Shown: positions 48,087 to 63,405 of the stretch, piece after piece | Numbering within the stretch: position 1 is the first letter of the stretch | Layout: every line of letters begins with the position of its first letter | Assembly: GCF_003439925.1 (NCBI RefSeq) | Contig: NZ_QQRR01000001.1 | Location: 1,054,001-1,118,000, forward strand | Direction: 5' to 3' | DNA from: Haloprofundus halophilus | GTDB taxonomy: Archaea > Halobacteriota > Halobacteria > Halobacteriales > Haloferacaceae | Length of the DNA stretch: 64,000 bases | The notes under the pieces: generated by a model | What the model was told of the DNA's origin: nothing | Database searches by the model: none | The model's input: the letters and a program-made list of their open reading frames with translations, nothing else | Position numbers and translations under genes: made by a program

Positions 48087-48224
48087 GGCTGCCGCTTCTC
48101 TACGACCTGGTATATGTTTTCTCTCCGAATAGAACAGAGCGAAGTGACAGAGACGGGTGCAGACTGGCTTATTTCCTCTGTTGAGTAATCTGTGGACGGT
48201 TGCGGGTGACGAGCGCAAAACTAG

Positions 48225-48263
48225 TTATCGGAACTATCGGAAATCACCCTGTTCCGTTTATTA
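48225..48263 (+). promoter_or_regulatory. Shared upstream element and TATA before orc1/cdc6
   Basis: Two copies of TATCGGAA (48227-48234 region and 48235-48242) are followed by ATCACCCTGT, then the T-rich TTTATTA (48257-48263, 35 to 29 bases before the ATG). CGGAAC (48229) and GTTCCG (48251) are inverted. A near-identical arrangement precedes the gene at 49377. Confidence 0.7.
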
Positions 48264-48291
48264 CAGCTCACGAGGAAGACTGCTGGTAAGC

Positions 48292-49305
48292 ATGATCAAC
48301 GATGCTCGCGTTCTACAGCCCGAGTTCATCCCTCAGGAGATCGAGCATCGCAATCAGGAGACGAACGTCCTCTCGAACGCGCTCAAACCGATTATGGATG
48401 GTCAGCCGGGAGAGACCTCACTCCTCCTTGGACCATCCGGTGCTGGGAAAACGTGCATTGCGCAGTTTACCGTCGAACGCCTCCGAGAGAACGTCCTCGA
48501 CATCAACACACAGTACATCAACTGCTGGCAGGACTACACTCGGTTTCGTGTGCTTTACCGTATTCTCGAAGGTATCGACCAAACGGTGGATATTCACCGA
48601 CGCTCCACACCACGGGACGAACTCCTGACTCGGATCCAAGAGTACGATGGGCCGCACTACGTTGTCATTCTCGACGAAGTCGACCAACTCGAAGATAAGA
48701 GCGTTCTCTATGACCTCTATCGCACGCGTAAGATTACGATGGTGCTCATCGCCAACCGCGAAGAGGACCTGTTCTCGATGTTCGACGAACGCTTGACGAG
48801 CCGTCTGCACGGGAGCGTCCGGGTTGAATTCGAGAGATACCACCTCGACGAACTCGTCGCGATTTTAGCTGCGCGGGCACGCTGGGGATTATCGGAAAAT
48901 GCTATCGGAAATCAGCAACTCGCTCTCATTGCCGATGCTGCAGCCGGTGATGCACGGATCGGAATCAGCATTCTTCGCAACGCCGCGCGACTCGCAGATC
49001 AGCAGTCTTGCAACACAATCTCGAATGAGATTCTACACGAGGCTGTCCCCGACGGACGCGAAGAGATCCGACGGTCGACTGCTGACAAATTGCGCGAGCA
49101 TCAGCGCGCCCTCTACGAAATTTTACTCGAAGAAGGCGAGATGAGTCCGGGCGATCTCTACGACGAATACTGTGAGTACGTCGACGAACCAAAGACGAAG
49201 CGAACCGTTCGTAACTACCTCCAAAAGATGGAGCAGTATCGACTCGTCGTCGCCCAAGGTGAGAAGCGTGCGCGGACCTACAGACCTCGGGAAAATGGGT
49301 CCTGA
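48292..49305 (+). CDS. orc: Orc1/Cdc6-family replication initiator ATPase
   Basis: A 337-residue AAA+ protein. Walker A is GPSGAGKT (residues 47-54), Walker B is VVILDEVDQL (Asp128, Glu129), sensor 1 is 'ITMVLIANREEDLFSMFDE', and the Orc-type lid has 'LIADAAAGDARIGISILRNA'. A C-terminal winged helix ('PKTKRTVRNYLQKMEQYRLV') should bind origin DNA. It is shorter than chromosomal Orc1 proteins, typical of element-encoded copies. Start is ATG at 48292 (MINDARV); the upstream in-frame extension overlaps the promoter element. It probably initiates replication of the integrated element. Confidence 0.92.
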   Translation: MINDARVLQPEFIPQEIEHRNQETNVLSNALKPIMDGQPGETSLLLGPSGAGKTCIAQFTVERLRENVLDINTQYINCWQDYTRFRVLYRILEGIDQTVDIHRRSTPRDELLTRIQEYDGPHYVVILDEVDQLEDKSVLYDLYRTRKITMVLIANREEDLFSMFDERLTSRLHGSVRVEFERYHLDELVAILAARARWGLSENAIGNQQLALIADAAAGDARIGISILRNAARLADQQSCNTISNEILHEAVPDGREEIRRSTADKLREHQRALYEILLEEGEMSPGDLYDEYCEYVDEPKTKRTVRNYLQKMEQYRLVVAQGEKRARTYRPRENGS

Positions 49306-49312
49306 AAGACAG

Positions 49313-49348
49313 TATCGGAATTTCGGAAACACCCCTGTCTTGGTTATG
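49313..49348 (+). promoter_or_regulatory. Shared upstream element and TATA before the RecA-fold gene
   Basis: TATCGGAA (49313-49320), then TTTCGGAAACACCCCTGTC, then TTATGA (49343-49348). The CTGT lies 39 bases before the ATG at 49377, compared with 40 bases before the Orc ATG. The similarity over about 30 bases at the same promoter position points to a common regulator. Confidence 0.68.
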
Positions 49349-49376
49349 ACACGAAAGCCGCCTAGATACTGTTGTG

Positions 49377-50057
49377 ATGTACCAGCAGACCAATGACCAA
49401 CCGACGCTCCCGACGCTAAACGACGGGATGACACTGTTACAGGCAAATCGTAGAGCGACAGGTGTGTTACAGTCGCTCGTCGTCGACCACCTGCTCTTAG
49501 AAAGTGGTGACGCAGTCTGGGTCGACGCTCGTGGAAACGGGACGACACAGCAACTGTGTCAGATTGCACCGACTATGAGAGTCCTCGACCGCATTCACAT
49601 CGCTCGGGGATTCACGCCATGGCAGCACTACAGCCTGCTAACGGACCTTCCGGATCAGATCACCGAGGACACGTCGCTCGTCGTCCTTCCGGAGTTCGAT
49701 TGGTTCTACCGGGCTGACGACCTCCGACGCGGTCAAGGTGAACGAATGTTCTCGGAGGCAGTTTCGCGAGTCATGGAGTTGCTCGACAACGTCGACGTAC
49801 CGATTCTCCTCACGCTATCAGAAAGAGACGACTTCGCCGAACCACTCCACAATGCAGTTTCAGAAACAGTTGAGTGTGAGCTGACAAAGTACGGGCCGCG
49901 GTTCTCGGGTGACTCGTTCGAGACACTCGTCTACCCGCTCGAAAACGGAATGGTCCAGACGACGATTGCGTACTGGAACCAGATTCTCGCTGCCCGTCAC
50001 CCGGCTGTGGTTCCGGTGACTTCGTCTCCGGAGGTGACCACCGTTGGGGCGAACTAA
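49377..50057 (+). CDS. RecA-fold protein lacking visible nucleotide-binding motifs
   Basis: A 226-residue protein. The core parallels RadA/RecA: strand 'DAVWVDARGNGTTQQLCQIA' (compare VIYIDTEGT), 'RVLDRIHIARGFTPWQHYSL' (compare LDNIFVARAYNSDHQ), LVVLPEFDWFYRADDLRRG (Walker B position, with Pro-Glu instead of Asp-Ser), and 'VMELLDNVDVPILLTLSE' (compare IPVLVTNQ). No Walker A P-loop is visible. It may be a structural partner of the polymerase or Orc. An in-frame GTG at 49374 is also possible. Its last bases overlap the next gene. Confidence 0.72.
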   Translation: MYQQTNDQPTLPTLNDGMTLLQANRRATGVLQSLVVDHLLLESGDAVWVDARGNGTTQQLCQIAPTMRVLDRIHIARGFTPWQHYSLLTDLPDQITEDTSLVVLPEFDWFYRADDLRRGQGERMFSEAVSRVMELLDNVDVPILLTLSERDDFAEPLHNAVSETVECELTKYGPRFSGDSFETLVYPLENGMVQTTIAYWNQILAARHPAVVPVTSSPEVTTVGAN

Positions 50058-50304
50058 TCCGACGTACCGCGACATGGTCCGAGCGACTGAAAGCCGATGG
50101 TCGGACTACCGACGAGCGCTCAGACACGGTGACCAACCGTACTTCGACCAGCTGTTCGAGCACGCTCGCGCTCATGCAGATGCAGGTGGGTATCTCAATC
50201 ATCAGTCTGTCGAGATTCCGATTCTGTTCTCCATCGCATTGGAACAGGAGAAGCGGATTACATCGCTTGAGAATCGAATGGACATCGACGAATTCGTCGA
50301 GTGA
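50044..50304 (+). CDS. Small haloarchaeal helical protein next to the polymerase
   Basis: An 86-residue alpha-helical protein: MGRTNPTYRDMVRATESRW, then 'YRRALRHGDQPYFDQLFEHA', 'HQSVEIPILFSIALEQEKRI' and an acidic end. I recall haloarchaeal proteins with the same MGRTNPT opening; that supports the TTG start at 50044, which overlaps the previous gene by 14 bases. An internal ATG at 50074 is the other choice. No function is known; the place before the polymerase suggests a role in the replication module. Confidence 0.7.
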   Translation: MGRTNPTYRDMVRATESRWSDYRRALRHGDQPYFDQLFEHARAHADAGGYLNHQSVEIPILFSIALEQEKRITSLENRMDIDEFVE

Positions 50305-50307
50305 GCT

Positions 50308-52419
50308 ATGTCGTTCAAATTCGACTATCTCGAAGGCGACGTACTCGAGTGGTCACTAACTCCTGACGGTGTGGAGTTCACTCGAAACTCGTCGTACGAG
50401 CCGACGATATACGTCTCGGCGCACGGAGAGGGCGACCTTGCGGAGGTCTCGGAAGTCCTTCGTCGACATCCCAAGGTCACACTCGCACACTTGGTAGAGG
50501 AGCGAATCGGGTTCAGACACGATCAAGAACCGGTGCTTCGCGTCGATGTTGTCGACTTAGATGCAGTTACTGATGTTGCACACGAAGTCAGGGGGTGGAG
50601 AAAACCCGGCGAGTACCGATGCTACAACGTCGATTTGAGCCGTGAGTTCAGGTATTGCCTCGAAGAAGGCGTGTCGTCGACACCCGAGCGAACACTCACA
50701 GTTCTCGATATCTCCATTTCAGAGTCTCAGCTGGCCAGTGGACGAATTACGACGGCTGATCTGGACGACGAGACGATAAGTGGAACGCAAGAGGAGGTCC
50801 TTGAAGTAGTCCACGACCGGCTCAGTGCTGACGACCCCGACGTCCTTCTACTCAACACAAGTGAGGCAGTTCCGGGGTTGTACGAACAAGCCGAACGAGT
50901 TGGGAACCGAGAGTTCGAGTTAGGACGCCTCCCTGGTTGGCAACAGCTCGCTGGAGAGTCGACGTACGCGAGTTATGGGAACGTCGGTCACTCGCCAGCG
51001 CGGTACAACCTCCCTGGGCGGGTGATTATCGACCGCTCGAACACGTTCATGTGGAACCAGACGAATCTCGATGGCTGCCTTGACCTCGTCGAACGGTCAG
51101 GAAAACCGCTTCAGGAGTTAGCCTGGTCGTCTATCGGAACTATCCTCACAGCGATTCAGATTCGAGAGGCGCGGAAACGAGGTGTGTTGGTGCCGTGGAA
51201 CTCCTGGCGGCACGAGCAGTTCAAGACGATGTGTCAGTTGCACGAAGCCGACCGTGGTGGGTTCACGTTCGCACCGAAGGTCGGCCTGCACGAGGATGTC
51301 CACGAACTCGACTTCTCGTCGCTGTACCCGAACATCATCGTTACCCGTAACGTGAGTCCTGAGAAGATTCGCTGTGAGTGCCACGCCGATCGAGAAGACG
51401 TTCCCGGACTCGGGTACTGTATCTGCGACGAACGTGGCTATCTTCCAGCTGTCCTCGAACCGCTCATCGAAGATCGCGACGCGATTAAAGCTGAACTCCG
51501 CGAGACAGACGATCCAGAGCGAGAGAATGTGTTAGAAGGGCGTTCGAACGCCATCAAGTGGATTCTCGTCTCCTGTTTCGGGTATCAGGGATTTTCGAAC
51601 GCGAAGTTCGGCCGCATCGAGTGCCACGAAGCGATTAACGCGTTCGCTCGTGAGATCTTGCTCGACTCGAAGCAAGTGTTCGAACAGAATGGCTGGGAAA
51701 TTGTCCACGGTATCGTCGACAGTATCTGGGTCCGCCGAATCAGAGACGAGGAGCAAACGCCACTCGACGAACTCGTCGAGCAAATCAGCCAAGGAGTAGG
51801 GATTCGGTTGGAGTACGAAGCGGCGTATGACTGGATTGCATTCGTCCCGATGCGCGATAGCGACGCTGGTGCGCTGACGAAGTATTTCGGGAAAGTCGCC
51901 GACGAGGACGAATACAAGTATCGAGGTATCGAGTGCCGACAGCGCAGCACGCCAGCCTTTATCGAAGAAGCGCAGACGGACATGATTCGAATCCTCGACG
52001 AGTATCAAGAGCCAGAGCCAGTCTGCGATCGACTGAAGCTGTGGGTCAAGCGTCTGCGGAGCGGTGGCGTTGAACCGGAAGACCTCCTCATCAACAACCG
52101 AGTCACGAAGCACGTCGACGAGTATTCGCAGTACACGCGAAACGTCGCGGCACTCGAACGGGCCGAGGGACACGGCCTCAGTAGGAGTCCAGGTGAGAGT
52201 GTCTCCTACGTCGTCGTTGACGACGAGAAACGGTCGAGAGATCGGGTAGCGTTGGCACACGAAGATCTCTCTACGTACGATGTCGACTTCTACGAGACGC
52301 AACTTCTCCGTGCAGCCGAGAGTGTTCTTTCGCCGCTCGGATGGCGTCGCTCTGCTATCGAGAACGCGTTGTCAGGGTCGCAGGACTCGAAGCTCTCAGC
52401 GTTCGAAAGGTGGGGATAG
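50308..52419 (+). CDS. polB: Family B DNA polymerase with degenerate exonuclease and motif C (PolB2-like)
   Basis: A 703-residue protein. Motif A is ELDFSSLYPNII (Asp335), motif B is 'KWILVSCFGYQGFSNAKFG' (Lys417), and motif C reads HGIVDSIWV where DTDS is expected, so the first acidic residue is replaced while Asp471 remains. A Cys-rich insert 'CECHADREDVPGLGYCIC' follows motif A. In the N-terminal exonuclease part, the DIE motif reads DIS (residue 134) and the later NxxxFD and YxxxD motifs are not clear. This pattern matches the archaeal PolB2 branch. It lies three bases after the previous gene. Whether it is active cannot be told. Confidence 0.9.
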   Translation: MSFKFDYLEGDVLEWSLTPDGVEFTRNSSYEPTIYVSAHGEGDLAEVSEVLRRHPKVTLAHLVEERIGFRHDQEPVLRVDVVDLDAVTDVAHEVRGWRKPGEYRCYNVDLSREFRYCLEEGVSSTPERTLTVLDISISESQLASGRITTADLDDETISGTQEEVLEVVHDRLSADDPDVLLLNTSEAVPGLYEQAERVGNREFELGRLPGWQQLAGESTYASYGNVGHSPARYNLPGRVIIDRSNTFMWNQTNLDGCLDLVERSGKPLQELAWSSIGTILTAIQIREARKRGVLVPWNSWRHEQFKTMCQLHEADRGGFTFAPKVGLHEDVHELDFSSLYPNIIVTRNVSPEKIRCECHADREDVPGLGYCICDERGYLPAVLEPLIEDRDAIKAELRETDDPERENVLEGRSNAIKWILVSCFGYQGFSNAKFGRIECHEAINAFAREILLDSKQVFEQNGWEIVHGIVDSIWVRRIRDEEQTPLDELVEQISQGVGIRLEYEAAYDWIAFVPMRDSDAGALTKYFGKVADEDEYKYRGIECRQRSTPAFIEEAQTDMIRILDEYQEPEPVCDRLKLWVKRLRSGGVEPEDLLINNRVTKHVDEYSQYTRNVAALERAEGHGLSRSPGESVSYVVVDDEKRSRDRVALAHEDLSTYDVDFYETQLLRAAESVLSPLGWRRSAIENALSGSQDSKLSAFERWG

Positions 52420-52656: not shown

Positions 52657-53424
52657 ATGAGTCGTGAGGAATTCGATTTATCTGGACTAGTAACAAACGC
52701 GGAAGCTCCAAAAGACATCATCAGATCGGATCGTTATGGATCTGCAGACGACGAGGTGCCCTCAGGACCAACGATTCGATGTGCCATCTGTGGGATTCCA
52801 GAGGAAGAAGCTAACCAACTTCCAATCGGATACTCGAATCCTGTCTGTAGAGACTGTGGCGAATTCGCAACTGACGAAGCTGGAGACAATCCTTGGGTCG
52901 GGTGGCCACCCGGCGAACGGCCGAAACCCAAGTCAGGTACTATCCAGCTGGCACCAGATGCTGGGGCGAATCCAGTATACATTGCAGGAGTGAAATGTTG
53001 GAGACGGTATCGATTTGGCGGCTATATCACACGGCGAGACGCCTTTGATTGCAACTCCGTCGAAGAGTTCACCGAGAAACACCGAGTTGAGCCAGGGTGG
53101 ATTCATGCTTTCAACACTCCTCACCCTAAGGGAGTCGATATTTCACGTGAGCAGTACGATGAATACCGTTCGCTGGTAAATGACCTTGAGAAGCTTAGTC
53201 GAACTACCCAGCGTCTACTTCACGATCCTTATTCTACCGAGTTATTGGAGATCCTTCAAGCACATGTCGACGACTTTGATGAAGATCTCCAGTCTCGTTT
53301 ACCAGACAAAGCGGAATTGAACATCAAAGAGTATGCGAAGGAAATTTATTTGGCTGTAAAACGAGAAAAGGACCATGTAGAGAAGTTGACAGAATTTTGT
53401 GAGCGATACTACTCTGAGGTCTAA
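52657..53424 (+). CDS. Protein with a double-CxxC zinc finger, unknown function
   Basis: A 255-residue protein. Cys42 and Cys45 (RCAICG) and Cys64 and Cys67 (VCRDCG) form a treble-clef or zinc-ribbon unit with an 18-residue spacer. A middle part reads 'PVYIAGVKCWRRYRFGGYIT' and 'PGWIHAFNTPHPKGVDISRE'. The C-terminal third is helical, with 'EYRSLVNDLEKLSRTTQRLL' and a final basic helix. No family is recognised. The codon use is AT-richer than host genes, as for recent cargo. It is followed by the tandem GIY-YIG gene after a short T-run. Confidence 0.7.
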   Translation: MSREEFDLSGLVTNAEAPKDIIRSDRYGSADDEVPSGPTIRCAICGIPEEEANQLPIGYSNPVCRDCGEFATDEAGDNPWVGWPPGERPKPKSGTIQLAPDAGANPVYIAGVKCWRRYRFGGYITRRDAFDCNSVEEFTEKHRVEPGWIHAFNTPHPKGVDISREQYDEYRSLVNDLEKLSRTTQRLLHDPYSTELLEILQAHVDDFDEDLQSRLPDKAELNIKEYAKEIYLAVKREKDHVEKLTEFCERYYSEV

Positions 53425-53460: not shown

Positions 53461-54849
53461 ATGTCAAAACATCCCTCAAAGGACGAGGTCTGGGATGAGT
53501 GGGTTAGACGAACTGTACTCGCGGATATCAATACAGTTGACACGCCGGATCCAGTTCCAATAATCGACGATTCGGGCGAAGAGATAGAGGTGACTGATGA
53601 ATATGAATCCTACCGATTGGGACGGGGGAGAGGCGATCATCTGTATCTCTTGTATCTCCTTGACGGATTGGGCGAGAAACCTTCAGACATTATTCCAGTC
53701 TACATCGGTGAAACGGGTAGTGTCGCAAGTCGGCTCCTGACTCATTTCAGAAAGCTACGCAATGCCCTCCCAATCTCCGACTGGGAAGACGATGGATCTT
53801 GGGGGAGCTTCGGGAAATACGATCATATTGCGACCGTCTACGACCGTACTGATTCACCGCTCTATGCATGGGTGGTTGATGTCAACGAGATCGACGTCGG
53901 TCCATATGGGTATCCCACATATCGACAGGAGCTTGAGGCGAAGACGGTCGGTCTCGTCCATTCGAATCCTCGATTCAATCGAACCTTCGCGAACCGAGAT
54001 TTCGTTCCAAACAGAGTCGCTCATGAGATGGGGAAAGTGGGAACAGAGTGGGTGGATTTGGCAGATGACACGCCTAATGAAGAAGCACAGATAGCCGCCA
54101 ACAAAGCGGGTCGAGACCTGAGCGGTAAGAGCAAATCAGACCTCTGGCACGACTGGGTCGAGCAAACAATCTGTCGAGAGATCCGCGGCTCCGAAGAAGA
54201 CCCGATTCCATTGTTCCAGACGGACGAAAATCTCGTTGTCGATTTTAAGGAACGTGGTTCGTCGACAGTACTCAAGCGGAGCGAAGCCATTGATTCCCGT
54301 ATCCGTCAGGAAGGAAAGCGCTGTGTCCACAGAACGGGTGTGAAAGACGGACCTAACGGGCTACTATACGTTATGTACCAGCTCGCCACCGATAACCCAT
54401 CACCAGAAGACATCACCCCACGGTATATTGGCAAGGCAGAGGCCTATGGGAAAAAGAACGAACTGAGTGGGAACTTCGAGGAGATTGCGAAGGATCGGAC
54501 TGGAACTGGATGTTTCGCTCGATGGGGTGATGGGAATTACTACCACATAGGAGAGCTATCAAGGACGGTGTTCGGGAAAGATTCGAAGAAGCTCAGCTGG
54601 GCGAGCGAGTTGTTCGATCAAGGTACACACCAGCTCAAGGAGCAAACGTACCTATGGATACGTGCTTGGGACCCGCAAAAACACCCTGGGCCATATGGCT
54701 ATCCAGCGTACTTGGCAGAGGTAGAAGCACTGTTGATCGGGTTGGCTTACGAAGCATATCCGAATCAACTCCTGAACCACAAAGAGGTCCCAGCAGAAGC
54801 GCCTTCTAATCAGGGTGGGTTCCAGTTTCGGCCTGCTTCTGTTAGGTAA
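53461..54849 (+). CDS. Protein with two GIY-YIG-like nuclease halves
   Basis: A 462-residue protein with two similar halves. Half 1: DEVWDEWVRRTVLADI (near residue 8), DPVPII, then 'LYLLYLLDG' (61), VYIGETG (80-86), 'GPYGYPTYRQELEAKTVG' (147-164) and NPRFNR. Half 2: SDLWHDWVEQTICREI (near 226), DPIPLF, 'LLYVMYQLA' (301), RYIGKAEA (321-328), 'GPYGYPAYLAEVEALLIG' (410-427) and PNQLLN. Both halves have the Y-Y then YIG signature, an Arg after it, and a Glu in the E-x-E-A helix, which is the GIY-YIG order. It is likely a nuclease or DNA-binding protein. The two halves differ, so one may be inactive. Confidence 0.78.
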   Translation: MSKHPSKDEVWDEWVRRTVLADINTVDTPDPVPIIDDSGEEIEVTDEYESYRLGRGRGDHLYLLYLLDGLGEKPSDIIPVYIGETGSVASRLLTHFRKLRNALPISDWEDDGSWGSFGKYDHIATVYDRTDSPLYAWVVDVNEIDVGPYGYPTYRQELEAKTVGLVHSNPRFNRTFANRDFVPNRVAHEMGKVGTEWVDLADDTPNEEAQIAANKAGRDLSGKSKSDLWHDWVEQTICREIRGSEEDPIPLFQTDENLVVDFKERGSSTVLKRSEAIDSRIRQEGKRCVHRTGVKDGPNGLLYVMYQLATDNPSPEDITPRYIGKAEAYGKKNELSGNFEEIAKDRTGTGCFARWGDGNYYHIGELSRTVFGKDSKKLSWASELFDQGTHQLKEQTYLWIRAWDPQKHPGPYGYPAYLAEVEALLIGLAYEAYPNQLLNHKEVPAEAPSNQGGFQFRPASVR

Positions 54850-58984: not shown

Positions 58985-60091
58985 ATGCCAGAGATTCCAT
59001 TCGTTGACGTTGGGAAAAAGTGGTTTGAGGATATTGTTGAGCAGATTACGAAGTGGTTCCGTGACGGCCTTATCGCCGGATTTGACGAGTTAGAGCAAAT
59101 CGCGTTCGGAACGCCGACACCACGTAATAGTGGTAATTCGCTGGTCTTTGGCGAGCCGACCTCAAATCCATGGGCCTCTATTCACGATGCCCTCGTCGGT
59201 GGGGAGATAATGTTGGTTGCTTTTGTTATTCTGCTAATATCGGTACAGGGGAGACACACCCTCCGAATCTTCCGCTTTGGGAGCCAATACGAAGCTAGAA
59301 AAGCCCGGAAAAATGCATGGACCGGAGCATTCCTGATCACTACCTGGTACTGGGTCGGCGTGATGGTTCTCCTTCTGGTTGAGGGATTCACACTCGCCTT
59401 AGTTCCCAACTTAGGCATTATCGGCGACCAGATGATTGCATTACTTCCATCTGCCTTAGCGAACCCTGCATTCACCTTAGTGATGGCTGCTATTGGAGGC
59501 CTCGCGATAATCGCACTGGAGGCGCTCTACTACATTCGCAACGTCCTGCTCTATATCTACATGTACGGGATGCCACTCGGCATCGCCGTCGCATACGGTA
59601 ACCTCCCCATCGTCTCAGATATCGCGAAGCGACTCTGCCAGCAATTCGTCCCGTTGGCGATCCTGCCGCTTCCTGCGGCGATTCTCTTTCGCGGCTACGA
59701 GGTACTTTTCGTCGGCGACGCCTCGCTTGATCCGCCGACGGAGTTCCTCGAATATCTCGTCGCCGTCTCACTGCCCGTACTCGCATTGTACCTTTCGTGG
59801 AAGGTGTTCAAGTACGGGACACCACTGACCGCGAGAGTCATCGGCACCGCCTCTACTGCAGCTGTCACAGTCGGTGCTGTTGCAGCCGGTGGCTACGTTG
59901 GCGGCGCACACGTCGCCTCCACAGCCGCCCGATTCGGACCGAAGGCTGCTGCTGGTCACGCAGTTGCCCAGCAAGTCACCCAACGAACGCAGACTGGCCC
60001 TGATAGCGGTGGGACGAAACACGACAACCTCGCCGACACGGGTCCAGGCCGCACCGTTCCTGAATACAGACGCACCGAGAACGACCCCTAA
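58985..60091 (+). CDS. VirB6/TrbL-like polytopic membrane protein
   Basis: A 368-residue protein with an amphipathic N-terminus ('VGKKWFEDIVEQITKWFRDG') and about six helices: 'GGEIMLVAFVILLISVQG', 'TTWYWVGVMVLLLVEGFTLA', 'NPAFTLVMAAIGGLAIIALE', 'YIRNVLLYIYMYGMPLGIAV', 'VPLAILPLPAAILFRGYEVL', 'EYLVAVSLPVLALYLSWKVF', and a Gly/Ala-rich final helix. The tail is soluble. The pattern fits VirB6/TrbL inner-membrane channel proteins, the usual neighbours of VirB4, but the identity is from layout, not motif. Confidence 0.72.
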   Translation: MPEIPFVDVGKKWFEDIVEQITKWFRDGLIAGFDELEQIAFGTPTPRNSGNSLVFGEPTSNPWASIHDALVGGEIMLVAFVILLISVQGRHTLRIFRFGSQYEARKARKNAWTGAFLITTWYWVGVMVLLLVEGFTLALVPNLGIIGDQMIALLPSALANPAFTLVMAAIGGLAIIALEALYYIRNVLLYIYMYGMPLGIAVAYGNLPIVSDIAKRLCQQFVPLAILPLPAAILFRGYEVLFVGDASLDPPTEFLEYLVAVSLPVLALYLSWKVFKYGTPLTARVIGTASTAAVTVGAVAAGGYVGGAHVASTAARFGPKAAAGHAVAQQVTQRTQTGPDSGGTKHDNLADTGPGRTVPEYRRTENDP

Positions 60092-60106: not shown

Positions 60107-61222
60107 ATGTCCACAGATAGCAACGGCGCAGCACGACGCGTAATGAACGCCTTTGGCGAAGAAAGCCGCATCCCATACCTCAACATCGACGAAGGAGACG
60201 TCGGCGTCCTACTCGGATTCCCGATTCTCGCACTCTTCCTCGCGGAGGTACTCGGGCTACAATCGCTCGCAGTACCCCTCATTGCCGCTGGTTTCGGGTT
60301 CGGCGCTGCCCTCGTCTTCGTCACGCCCGACCACCTCTCAGCAAGCGAGTGGCTTCAGACACTCCTTCGGTACGCAAAGCGACCCAAAATCACCTACAAT
60401 GTCGCCACTGAGGCCACCAAGAGTCACGAGTCGGATAGTACACGTAACGAGGGCGGGCTCGCGAACTACACGCCCTTCACGCCAGACGAACGCACTCAGG
60501 ACTTGACGAATATCGAACGTGCGTGGCCCGGAACGGGCGCAATTCAGCGGCAAGACGGTGTGATGGAAGCATTCATCGAAGTTTATCCAGGGAACATGGA
60601 TTTCGCGATGTCCGGTGACTGGGCGACGCTCCAGCACGCTGCCAGCGAATTCGCAAACAAGGAACTCGATTTCGCGCTCAAATTCCACACCACCACGCGG
60701 TCGTTCCCAGTTGAGAAAGTCATTGCTCGAACCGAAGAGCGACTCCGTGATGATGACGTAAAATCGAATCCGGTGTTCGAGGAATTGCTGCGAGAATATC
60801 GTGACCGACGTCCAGAGGAGATGGACGGCACCCAGCAACTCCACTACTACCTCGGCGTCGAGGTGAATCAGTTGGAAGTCTATGACCGCTTCCAGTACGA
60901 ACGCACTCCCGCAGAGAAACTCACGACGATTCCATTCATCGGGATTCTCTTTACACCCTTTGTGACACGACGTGAGGACTTCTCGGATGCAGAGCTTCGC
61001 GCGAGGATGTTCGAGCGCCTCGACGAACGGCTCTCGACAGTACGTTCTGAATTTATTCAGCAGGCAGATGAGTGGTCTGCACGGCGTCTCAGTACCGTCG
61101 AGTTGTTCGTGCTCTGTATGGACTTCTGGAACGGCGAAGAATACGACGTCGACGACGCATCGCACGTCGTTCGCGAGCAGCCTATTGTTGGTAATGCGTC
61201 TCGCCGGGAGGACGCAGAATGA
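60107..61222 (+). CDS. Membrane protein with a VirB4-like N-terminal module
   Basis: A 371-residue protein. Two adjacent helices ('VGVLLGFPILALFLAEVLGL' and 'VPLIAAGFGFGAALVFVTP', about 31-73) follow a short cytosolic start. The soluble part reads 'IERAWPGTGAIQRQDGVMEA', FIEVYPGNMDFAMS, and a long helical 'KVIARTEERLRDDDVKSNPV' region. It resembles PrgI/VirB3 fused to the N-terminal part of VirB4, without ATPase motifs. It overlaps the next gene by four bases. Function would be coupling of the ATPase to the membrane channel (inference). Confidence 0.65.
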   Translation: MSTDSNGAARRVMNAFGEESRIPYLNIDEGDVGVLLGFPILALFLAEVLGLQSLAVPLIAAGFGFGAALVFVTPDHLSASEWLQTLLRYAKRPKITYNVATEATKSHESDSTRNEGGLANYTPFTPDERTQDLTNIERAWPGTGAIQRQDGVMEAFIEVYPGNMDFAMSGDWATLQHAASEFANKELDFALKFHTTTRSFPVEKVIARTEERLRDDDVKSNPVFEELLREYRDRRPEEMDGTQQLHYYLGVEVNQLEVYDRFQYERTPAEKLTTIPFIGILFTPFVTRREDFSDAELRARMFERLDERLSTVRSEFIQQADEWSARRLSTVELFVLCMDFWNGEEYDVDDASHVVREQPIVGNASRREDAE

Positions 61223-63405
61223 GCGTGTTGTTGCAGGCGGACGCGATAGGTGGCCTGACTGAGTTGCTTCCGAATCTAGTGACGGCTGAAGGGTTTGGAC
61301 TCACCCTCCTGGCCGTAGTCGTGCTTGGAGTTGTGGTGAAGAGCCTGTACAACCGTCGGACTGAATCGGAGGACGAGACCGTCGAGATGGCAGATGTGCT
61401 TGAACCGGAGACCGTCGAACGTGGGAGTGTGGAAGGTCGGGTACTCGACGATATCGCCGAACGCCACAAGAGTGCAATCGCACCGGCTGCTATCGAGTGG
61501 AATACGCGGAGCGCAGTCGTCGGCGAGCAATGGACACAGACGTTGTATATCGAGGAGTATCCAGACTACCCGAAGGATGGGTATCTGAACGAACTCTTCG
61601 ACCTCACGGACGTCGAGTTCGACCTTACGGTTCATATCACGCCGAAGAATCAGCAGGCTGCACGTGATGAACTGCAGAAGGTCGCAGACAGCCTCCAAGC
61701 CGATGCCGATCTCGAACGCTCCGTCCGTGGCGTCTATCTCCAAGACCGCGCGAGCGAAGCCGCAGCGACCTACACGGCCGTCGAGAGTGGGGCTCGCGTG
61801 TTCGCCCAAGCGATGTTCGTCACTGTCCGTGCGGATACGCAGGCAAAACTTCGCGAATCGGTTCGTCGTGTTCGCAGTACGCTTCGTGACCAACCGGCTG
61901 GCCTCATCCCGAAGACCGCCCTCTGTAAGCAGGATCTTGCGCTTCAGTCTGCAGCGCCTGTTGGGCCGAATCGGTTCGGTCGGGAAGCGATCGCGTTGGG
62001 TGGGGCCGTTGGAGCGTTACTTGCCTCACCGCATAACGCGACGATTCTTGAGGAAGGTGGCGTTGAGTTCGGCGTTCACAAAGACAACCGGAGTCCCGTT
62101 GTGATTGACCCGTTTGCTCGTGAGAACGGGTATGCAATGTTCACTATCGGCGATCCCGGCTCGGGCAAGTCGTTCGGGTCGAAACAGAACTTCATTCGCT
62201 CCATCGAACAGAGCGAGGACCGTATCGGTATCATCCTCGAACCACTGAATAACTGGACTGGGGTTGCGGAAGCCCTCGGTGCAGAACGAATTACGGTTGG
62301 TGGGAATATGGGACTGAATCCGTTGGAATTGAAGCCGACACCTGAGCGTGTTCGGCGAGCGATGGGAGAAGACGCCAGTCCATTCAAAGACAAAAAGGAC
62401 GATGCGCTGAGCTTCCTGATGAACTTCTTCGCACTCCGGGGTGTGGAGCTTGGGGATCGCCTTACAACGGTTGAGACGGCGCGGGATGAAGCGTATGCTC
62501 GCAAAGGAATTACTGACGAGATAGATACGCACGACAACGAGAGTCCGACGCTGCGTGATATGATGGACGTCTTCGAGGAGATGATCGACCAGCCTGAAGG
62601 CTTCGTCGTTCGCTCGGATGCTGAAGCCGGAAAGATTCGAGACGACGCGAAGTGGTTGCTGGATCAGTTCCGTCCGTTCGAGGAGGGTGGCCGGTATGCG
62701 AATCTCGGGAAACAAACGGAGTTTGATATTCGTGACGAGGACATCATTTACCTTGACTTCGGGCAGAAAGACGGCAGCGTCGGTGGCAGTACGAGTCTCA
62801 TCATGCAGCTTCTGATTTCGCTTGTGTATGAGCGGGCGAAGGAGACCGAGAAAGAGATCGTGTTCGTCATCGACGAAGCCCGCTATATCATGCAAGATAC
62901 GGCGACGCTGCAGTTCCTCGAAACGGTGTTCCGACATCACCGCCACCACGATCTCTCGATTCGGCTTGTGACGCAGACGGTCGACGAGTTCTTCCAGCAC
63001 GACGAGTCAGAGGCGATTCTCGATCAGTGTGCGGTCAAGCAGTTCCATCAACTCGATGGCATGGACGAACACTGGGCCAACGAATTCGGGTTGAACCATG
63101 CTCAGATGCGGTACGTTCAGAATGCGGTATTGGGGAGCGAGGAAGTCGGGTATTCTGAGGCGCTCGTTGGAGTGGATAACGACTGGCGAGGAATTGAGGT
63201 TCGAGCATTACCGAAGGAGCAGCAGGTTATCGACTTCGACGCGAAAGAGCAGTCGAAAGTGGAGTTGCCTGGGGTGACTGACGCAACTTCGCAAAACAAG
63301 TGTGACAAGACGGTCGAATCTCATGGCGAGGCCGATACGCACTCGAATCGAATACGTGCCGAGACTGACAGTGGGGGCTGTGGATTCACAGGTTCTCGGC
63401 GGTGA
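61219..63405 (+). CDS. VirB4/TraC-type secretion ATPase
   Basis: A 728-residue protein. An N-terminal helix (about 18-38) is followed by the VirB4 N-terminal domain ('YIEEYPDYPKDGYLNELFDL', 'MFVTVRADTQAKLRESVRRV'). The ATPase core has Walker A GDPGSGKSFGSKQ (about 311-323), then 'NMGLNPLELKPTPERV', 'RDEDIIYLDFGQKDGS', Walker B IVFVIDEARYIM (about 546-557) and 'IRLVTQTVDEFFQHDESEAI'. The last 60 residues are hydrophilic. VirB4 powers pilus or conjugation machines. It closes a tightly packed operon. Confidence 0.92.
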   Translation: MSVLLQADAIGGLTELLPNLVTAEGFGLTLLAVVVLGVVVKSLYNRRTESEDETVEMADVLEPETVERGSVEGRVLDDIAERHKSAIAPAAIEWNTRSAVVGEQWTQTLYIEEYPDYPKDGYLNELFDLTDVEFDLTVHITPKNQQAARDELQKVADSLQADADLERSVRGVYLQDRASEAAATYTAVESGARVFAQAMFVTVRADTQAKLRESVRRVRSTLRDQPAGLIPKTALCKQDLALQSAAPVGPNRFGREAIALGGAVGALLASPHNATILEEGGVEFGVHKDNRSPVVIDPFARENGYAMFTIGDPGSGKSFGSKQNFIRSIEQSEDRIGIILEPLNNWTGVAEALGAERITVGGNMGLNPLELKPTPERVRRAMGEDASPFKDKKDDALSFLMNFFALRGVELGDRLTTVETARDEAYARKGITDEIDTHDNESPTLRDMMDVFEEMIDQPEGFVVRSDAEAGKIRDDAKWLLDQFRPFEEGGRYANLGKQTEFDIRDEDIIYLDFGQKDGSVGGSTSLIMQLLISLVYERAKETEKEIVFVIDEARYIMQDTATLQFLETVFRHHRHHDLSIRLVTQTVDEFFQHDESEAILDQCAVKQFHQLDGMDEHWANEFGLNHAQMRYVQNAVLGSEEVGYSEALVGVDNDWRGIEVRALPKEQQVIDFDAKEQSKVELPGVTDATSQNKCDKTVESHGEADTHSNRIRAETDSGGCGFTGSRR

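Follow-up and report, generated by a model that had tools for sequence, protein, structure and literature searches.

A protein with one canonical-type and one divergent GIY-YIG-like half, encoded on an apparently conjugative plasmid-like element of Haloprofundus halophilus

The window, that is, the whole stretch of DNA analysed here, comprises 64,000 nt of Haloprofundus halophilus contig NZ_QQRR01000001.1 (positions 1,054,001 to 1,118,000, forward strand). Inside this large contig lies a plasmid-like and apparently conjugative element, as judged by a Cdc6/PolB module upstream, and TrbL/VirB6- and VirB4-like genes downstream, of a gene specifying a 462-aa protein. The flanking features are as follows:

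48157-49305, + strand: Orc1/Cdc6-type replication initiator (TIGR02928, E = 9.9e-51, just under the cut-off; Cdc6_lid above cut-off)
50308-52419, + strand: type B DNA polymerase (PolB) of a plasmid-type module (NF004418, 1080 bits)
52657-53424, + strand: zinc-finger-like protein of 255 aa, its gene 36 bp upstream of that for the 462-aa protein (homologues in 27/292 genomes)
58985-60091, + strand: TrbL/VirB6-like conjugation protein, downstream (PF19590, E = 4.7e-141)
61219-63405, + strand: VirB4/TrbE-like ATPase, downstream (PF03135, above cut-off)

The upstream genes of the window (48157-52419, + strand) are ordered Cdc6, 227-aa protein, 86-aa protein and PolB. This order (Cdc6, ~225 aa, 86 aa, PolB) is also conserved on many haloarchaeal plasmids, represents a distinct kind of plasmid replication module, and is followed by different genes in each case examined. 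Cargo of a mobile element was the location given in an earlier, sequence-only reading of this DNA, and the gene does lie in a variable position behind the conserved replication module, where other plasmids hold other genes. In the window, the protein of about 225 aa is RadB-like and the 86-aa protein matches PHROG 30126 (E = 1.4e-20). The 255-aa protein begins with a zinc-finger-like CxxC...CxxC pattern, a small protein corresponding to its residues 34-145 stands alone in many haloarchaea, and no Pfam family matched it. No ORF with a YIG motif was present at six inspected loci of its homologues, and its gene was rejected as an obligate partner because its relatives occur without GIY-YIG genes; it is probably an unrelated neighbour.

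The ORF for the 462-aa protein was found exactly where first described, and the reverse strand opposite it has many stops. Its layout is:

53461-54849, + strand: gene for the double GIY-YIG-like protein (ORF with ATG start, 462 aa; about 30 full-length homologues, 47-76% identical)
53473-54054, + strand: N-half, residues 5-198, putative canonical-type GIY-YIG domain, homologous to the C-half (60% mean pairwise identity)
54055-54126, + strand: linker, residues 199-222 (13% mean identity, 21-27 aa long)
54127-54798, + strand: C-half, residues 223-446, putative divergent GIY-YIG-type domain (stand-alone homologues; AlphaFold model of the C-half)

The protein consists of two homologous halves produced by an internal duplication. 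Shared blocks occur in the same order in both, namely W11/W229, DPVP (30)/DPIP (247), Y62/Y303, YIG (81/322) and GPYGYP (147/410), with ExEA at 157-160 and 420-423. The sequence-only reading had reported this order, and its offsets of 218-263 residues measure 217 to 263. Chance does not explain this similarity: in BLASTP, the two halves matched each other at E = 2e-10, the local score was 125 against 32.7 ± 5.2 in 2000 shuffles (z = 17.7), and hhalign of the two half profiles gave a probability of 99.6 (E = 3.4e-24) over about 180 columns. The duplicated unit of about 200 aa is larger than a GIY-YIG core, each copy including a Trp-bearing helix (W11, W229) and the DPxP block. Across 30 homologues, mean pairwise identity was 60% in the N-half, 13% in the linker and 63% in the C-half, the pattern that two domains under constraint, joined by a free linker, should show.

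Candidate catalytic positions were assessed in the same homologues and are listed below:

53644-53655, + strand: GIY-like strand with Y62 and Y65 (invariant 30/30; strand predicted at 60-67 in a low-confidence model)
53701-53712, + strand: N-half YIG motif, Y81-I-G83-E84 (Y81, G83 and E84 invariant 30/30)
53731-53745, + strand: R91 and H95, at the canonical GIY-YIG Arg and His positions (invariant 30/30)
53929-53937, + strand: E157/E159, candidate metal-binding Glu (invariant 30/30; E159 aligned with C-half E422)
53992-53994, + strand: N178, candidate catalytic Asn (invariant 30/30; aligned with C-half N439)
54367-54369, + strand: Y303, C-half GIY-like Tyr (invariant 30/30, also across both halves and stand-alone forms)
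54424-54435, + strand: C-half YIG motif, Y322-I-G324-K325 (invariant 30/30)
54520-54546, + strand: C-half R354-W-G ... H362 (invariant 30/30 and present in stand-alone forms)
54724-54726, + strand: E422, C-half candidate catalytic Glu (invariant 30/30)
54775-54777, + strand: N439, C-half candidate catalytic Asn (invariant 30/30)

The N-half retains the full canonical GIY-YIG set (Tyr, Tyr, Arg, His, Glu, Asn) without exception in the 30 homologues. In the C-half, Y303, Y322, G324, K325, N338, R354, H362, E422 and N439 are likewise invariant, but none of the 30 homologues has the canonical Arg after the YIG motif; K331/K332 and the distant R354 are found instead. The R354-W-G ... H362 stretch, part of an expanded conserved block (FARWGxGxYxHxGELS), is a possible substitute for that Arg. 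Common to both halves and to the stand-alone forms are a Trp, the GIY Tyr, P-x-Y-x-G (YIG), W-G, His, Trp, Glu and Asn. The conservation of Tyr, Arg, Glu and Asn is complete in the N-half and lacks only the canonical Arg in the C-half. The original proposal of a dimer-like single chain, or of a catalytic and a structural half, holds in that there are two cores, but the halves are unequal. One canonical and one divergent domain is the better wording, because the C-half lacks the canonical Arg and also occurs alone.

Matches to the protein were found in 59 of 391 genomes of the class, about 30 of them full-length tandem proteins and the remainder single homologues of the C-half (C-types) or fragments. 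The full-length homologues are scattered among haloarchaea, many being plasmid-borne, and the tandem gene was not found in the four further genomes sampled from Haloprofundus. Several copies are split or interrupted by stops, as is usual for accessory genes. C-types of about 216-264 aa stand alone in haloarchaea, and occur also on three Deinococcus plasmids and two viral contigs. The tandem protein had no match among phage records, and among viral contigs its profile matched none and the C-type profile two; in a viral contig (L072:4938-6669, L073) the C-type gene is located at the contig end behind an integrase-like ORF, where prophages usually hold cargo. On all three Deinococcus plasmids, the C-type gene is directly preceded by a canonical GIY-YIG gene, with a 4-bp overlap. 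Canonical and divergent domains are thus encoded as a gene pair in Deinococcus and as a fusion in haloarchaea. It is not established that the tandem is a direct join of the Deinococcus operon, as in hhalign the upstream Deinococcus protein (P0002) matches the C-half at E = 8e-14 but the N-half at E = 5.8e-5, so that the C-half is the nearer of the two, and the tree is undecided. A free-standing N-half family was rejected, the single case (L055) being a truncated fragment near a transposase-like ORF. In the tree, a single clade (100/100) holds the N-halves, the main groups of which recur within the C-halves; because of this mirroring, the present tandem form probably arose from one event. Chromosomal single C-types in one genus (g28) and neighbouring genera are found beside genes for an MTH865-like protein and an S9-type peptidase, and as these flanks are similar in several genera, this subfamily looks like a vertically kept housekeeping copy. 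At L056:7834-8824, L063:8075-9144, L006 and L011 the C-type gene directly follows that for the small MTH865-like protein.

A recurrent operon partner is DUF6884 (PF21818). Its gene immediately precedes, with an overlap or a gap of at most 153 bp, the tandem gene at L029, L031, L032 and L044, and likewise single C-type genes at L004, L005, L038, L087 and L092. A same-strand DUF6884 gene is close by at 4/36 tandem loci and at 5/15 single C-type loci, the latter set including two loci taken from the DUF6884 search. It is absent beside most tandem genes; none was found in the neighbourhood of the window copy, the genome of which holds only a partial, sub-threshold DUF6884 match. A second haloarchaeal double GIY-YIG family (L066:22645-23508, - strand, and L152-L181; 287 aa, two YIG motifs, PF01541 above cut-off) has its gene adjoining, and overlapping, that for DUF6884 in 12/30 loci. 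Viewed from DUF6884, 12 of its 30 best haloarchaeal loci are next to a tandem, C-type or second-family gene. With some loci entering both, the two counts are not independent, but each lies far above the value of about 2e-4 per locus crudely expected at random. Against the PADLOC models, DUF6884 matched PDC-M57A (E = 1.7e-33) and, weakly, DpdC. A literature search found no link of DUF6884 or YaaA with GIY-YIG enzymes.

A further partner, a 198-aa protein with a D...ExK motif, is encoded 3-12 bp after the tandem gene at L003, L024 and L067, and at L054:8117-9788 (- strand) it is the first member of an operon in which DUF6884 and then a single C-type follow. An initial assignment as wHTH was dropped for PD-(D/E)XK-like on motif grounds; profile libraries searched with the protein gave no confirmation of PD-(D/E)XK, and the NCBI name 'transcriptional regulator' for its relatives is probably wrong. 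In Deinococcus peraridilitoris (L083:4504-5259), a DUF7669-DUF6884 fusion is encoded about 200 bp upstream of the GIY-YIG pair. Loci of the tandem gene or its relatives occur near defence genes, including BREX and a Hachiman-like DUF1837 and helicase pair; at L066, DUF1837 and DEAD/DEAH (Hachiman-like) genes follow the second-family gene. At L082:8016-8762, a single C-type is found among QueC, QueE, FolE, QueD and two tRNA-guanine transglycosylase genes, with csa3 near, a setting like a Dpd-like 7-deazaguanine DNA modification-type cluster.

We infer the GIY-YIG fold from the motifs, weak Pfam hits and transitive homology, and the 462-aa protein very probably belongs to this superfamily. A Pfam search with the window protein returned no match, PF01541 (GIY-YIG) included. 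Among 29 homologues, however, PF01541 was the top and most frequent family, with sub-threshold matches in 23 (best E = 0.0025; the search output gives no location within the protein), and PF19239 (GIY_YIG_domain) was weakly matched by 10. Stand-alone C-types had no match to PF01541, not even a weak one. P0002 matches PF01541 above the curated cut-off, and completes a chain of homology from N-half to C-half (E = 3.4e-24), C-half to P0002 (E = 8e-14) and P0002 to the Pfam family. At NCBI, several homologues are named 'GIY-YIG nuclease family protein' and others 'hypothetical protein'. The two GIY-YIG-like cores of the sequence-only reading agree with the invariant motifs and recurrent PF01541 matches, but only the N-half is fully canonical. 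AlphaFold models were built from shallow alignments: that of the full-length protein (7 sequences) was poor (pLDDT 61.6), and its Foldseek search was set aside as meaningless for this reason, while that of the C-half (17 sequences) reached pLDDT 79.4 and pTM 0.83. In this structure prediction, the strand-strand-helix...strand-helix order of the C-half model agrees with GIY-YIG, but Foldseek searches with it against PDB and BFVD returned no significant match. A PDB sequence search with the window protein and two profiles gave nothing credible. Another fold with accidental YIG-like motifs would fit the Foldseek result and the weak hhalign scores to canonical haloarchaeal GIY-YIG proteins (N-half, E = 0.024 at a probability of 2%; C-half, no match), but is highly improbable given the recurrence of PF01541, the Pfam match of P0002, a homologue of the C-half, and the names assigned at NCBI. 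Catalysis by the N-half alone, with the C-half as a structural or DNA-binding copy, deserves more weight and is quite possible, if on balance improbable. It is favoured by the retention of the canonical Arg in the N-half only and by the expanded FARWGxGxYxHxGELS block, but the C-half Tyr, Glu and Asn are invariant, stand-alone C-types retain the Glu and Asn without any N-half, and an unusual active site is on record for the GIY-YIG enzyme R.Hpy188I (PMC2630997).

GIY-YIG enzymes usually have one active site, and dimerise or nick sequentially to cut both strands. The product of the window gene is proposed to be a DNA endonuclease that joins a canonical N-terminal and a divergent C-terminal GIY-YIG-type domain in one chain. 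Each domain would bind one metal through its Glu and cut one strand, so that a single polypeptide could make a double-strand break or two nicks. The nuclease would be part of small accessory modules on haloarchaeal plasmids and integrated elements, with DUF6884 as recurrent operon partner. DUF6884 is YaaA-like, and its Pfam authors proposed base flipping at lesions (PMC11701544); because it may flip out and recognise abnormal bases, the module may cut DNA with modified or damaged bases and act in defence by modification-dependent restriction. In the window element, the nuclease would find its substrate alone or via another partner. We give this explanation as a whole an even chance. A more specific form, in which DUF6884 is a separate base-flipping sensor that recruits a heterodimer-like GIY-YIG pair for modified- or damaged-base restriction in archaea and Deinococcus, is tentative and rather unlikely; it takes the pair to be the two overlapping Deinococcus genes, fused in haloarchaea and sometimes accompanied by the PD-(D/E)XK-like protein as a third component.

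The same module could instead supply a structure- or lesion-specific nuclease for repair or recombination, in a UvrC/Cho- or Slx1-like role; genome maintenance by the element or host would then be its purpose, and DUF6884 its lesion finder. Binding of DUF6884/YfjM to abasic and ribonucleotide lesions has been reported (PMC11701544), the chromosomal C-types have their MTH865-like and S9-type peptidase neighbours, the window gene is located behind a replication module, and the best NCBIfam resemblance, a very weak one, is to the UvrC-like nuclease Cho. On the other hand, the tandem form is patchy (about 30/391 genomes) and often plasmid-borne, with varying neighbours and several broken copies, and defence systems are among the neighbouring genes; a role in repair rather than defence is fairly unlikely in our estimation. 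GIY-YIG domains are common in homing enzymes, and a selfish or competitive nuclease (homing-type, or for inter-plasmid exclusion) with related plasmids or empty sites as its targets would also account for a lone cassette at differing insertion places, metabolic neighbourhoods included. This is very unlikely: Pfam detected no NUMOD, HTH or other DNA-binding module in the window protein, recurrent operon partners (DUF6884 and the 198-aa protein) are unexpected for a homing gene, and the loci examined show no insertion into conserved genes or intron-like setting. The data do not separate defence from repair, the latter being suggested by lesion binding of DUF6884 and the chromosomal C-type subfamily. 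We lean towards defence because of the mobility of the gene, the identity of its partner and the neighbouring defence genes (BREX, Hachiman-like and the deazaguanine modification-type cluster); cleavage, target and role are inferred.

While the fold is a known one, the double-domain architecture and its coupling with DUF6884 are not described in the literature searched, which returned no tandem GIY-YIG nuclease. The claim that no archaeal family with this layout had been described stands for Pfam and that literature, but several homologues already carry the GIY-YIG name at NCBI. The N-half resembles the GIY-YIG superfamily (PF01541; UvrC/Cho, Slx1, R.Eco29kI, R.Hpy188I) in its order of LYxxY, YIG, Arg, His, Glu and Asn, as does the predicted strand-strand-helix-strand-helix order. 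The window protein differs in having two domains per chain, scores below Pfam cut-offs, an extension of about 60 aa with a conserved Trp before each core, and a C-half with a long insert (the ARWG block) and no canonical Arg. CMoRE, a type IV 5hmC-dependent restriction enzyme with one GIY-YIG and a sensor domain that forms a dimer of dimers (PMC12923530), is likewise a GIY-YIG nuclease of accessory type, has two tyrosines in its GIY strand and may share the targeting of modified bases; the window protein instead has two GIY-YIG-type domains, and a sensor, if there is one, would be encoded separately (DUF6884). SNIPE, a defence nuclease combining DUF4041 and GIY-YIG (PMC13190303), shares the effector type, but has no double domain, and the window protein has no recognised membrane segment or DUF4041. 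Searched with PADLOC models, the nuclease matched no convincing family, the only hit being PDC-S14 (E = 0.013) over the YIG motif. The PDC-M57 (PADLOC) and Dpd 7-deazaguanine systems are similar in that the DUF6884 partner matches PDC-M57A and weakly DpdC, but the nuclease is without counterpart there, no PDC-M57 partner model having matched the GIY-YIG proteins. A natural duplicate with a canonical and a divergent domain, and a two-gene counterpart in Deinococcus, offers a handle on the evolution of double-strand cutting. The second haloarchaeal double GIY-YIG family also has two YIG cores per chain and a DUF6884 partner, but is shorter (287 aa), has canonical-looking YIG...R motifs in both halves, and looks unrelated, as it did not match the window protein significantly in the sequence searches made. 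DUF6884, a PADLOC defence candidate of unknown function, is widespread among haloarchaea, and its repeated coupling with two such families suggests a function for it that can be tested.
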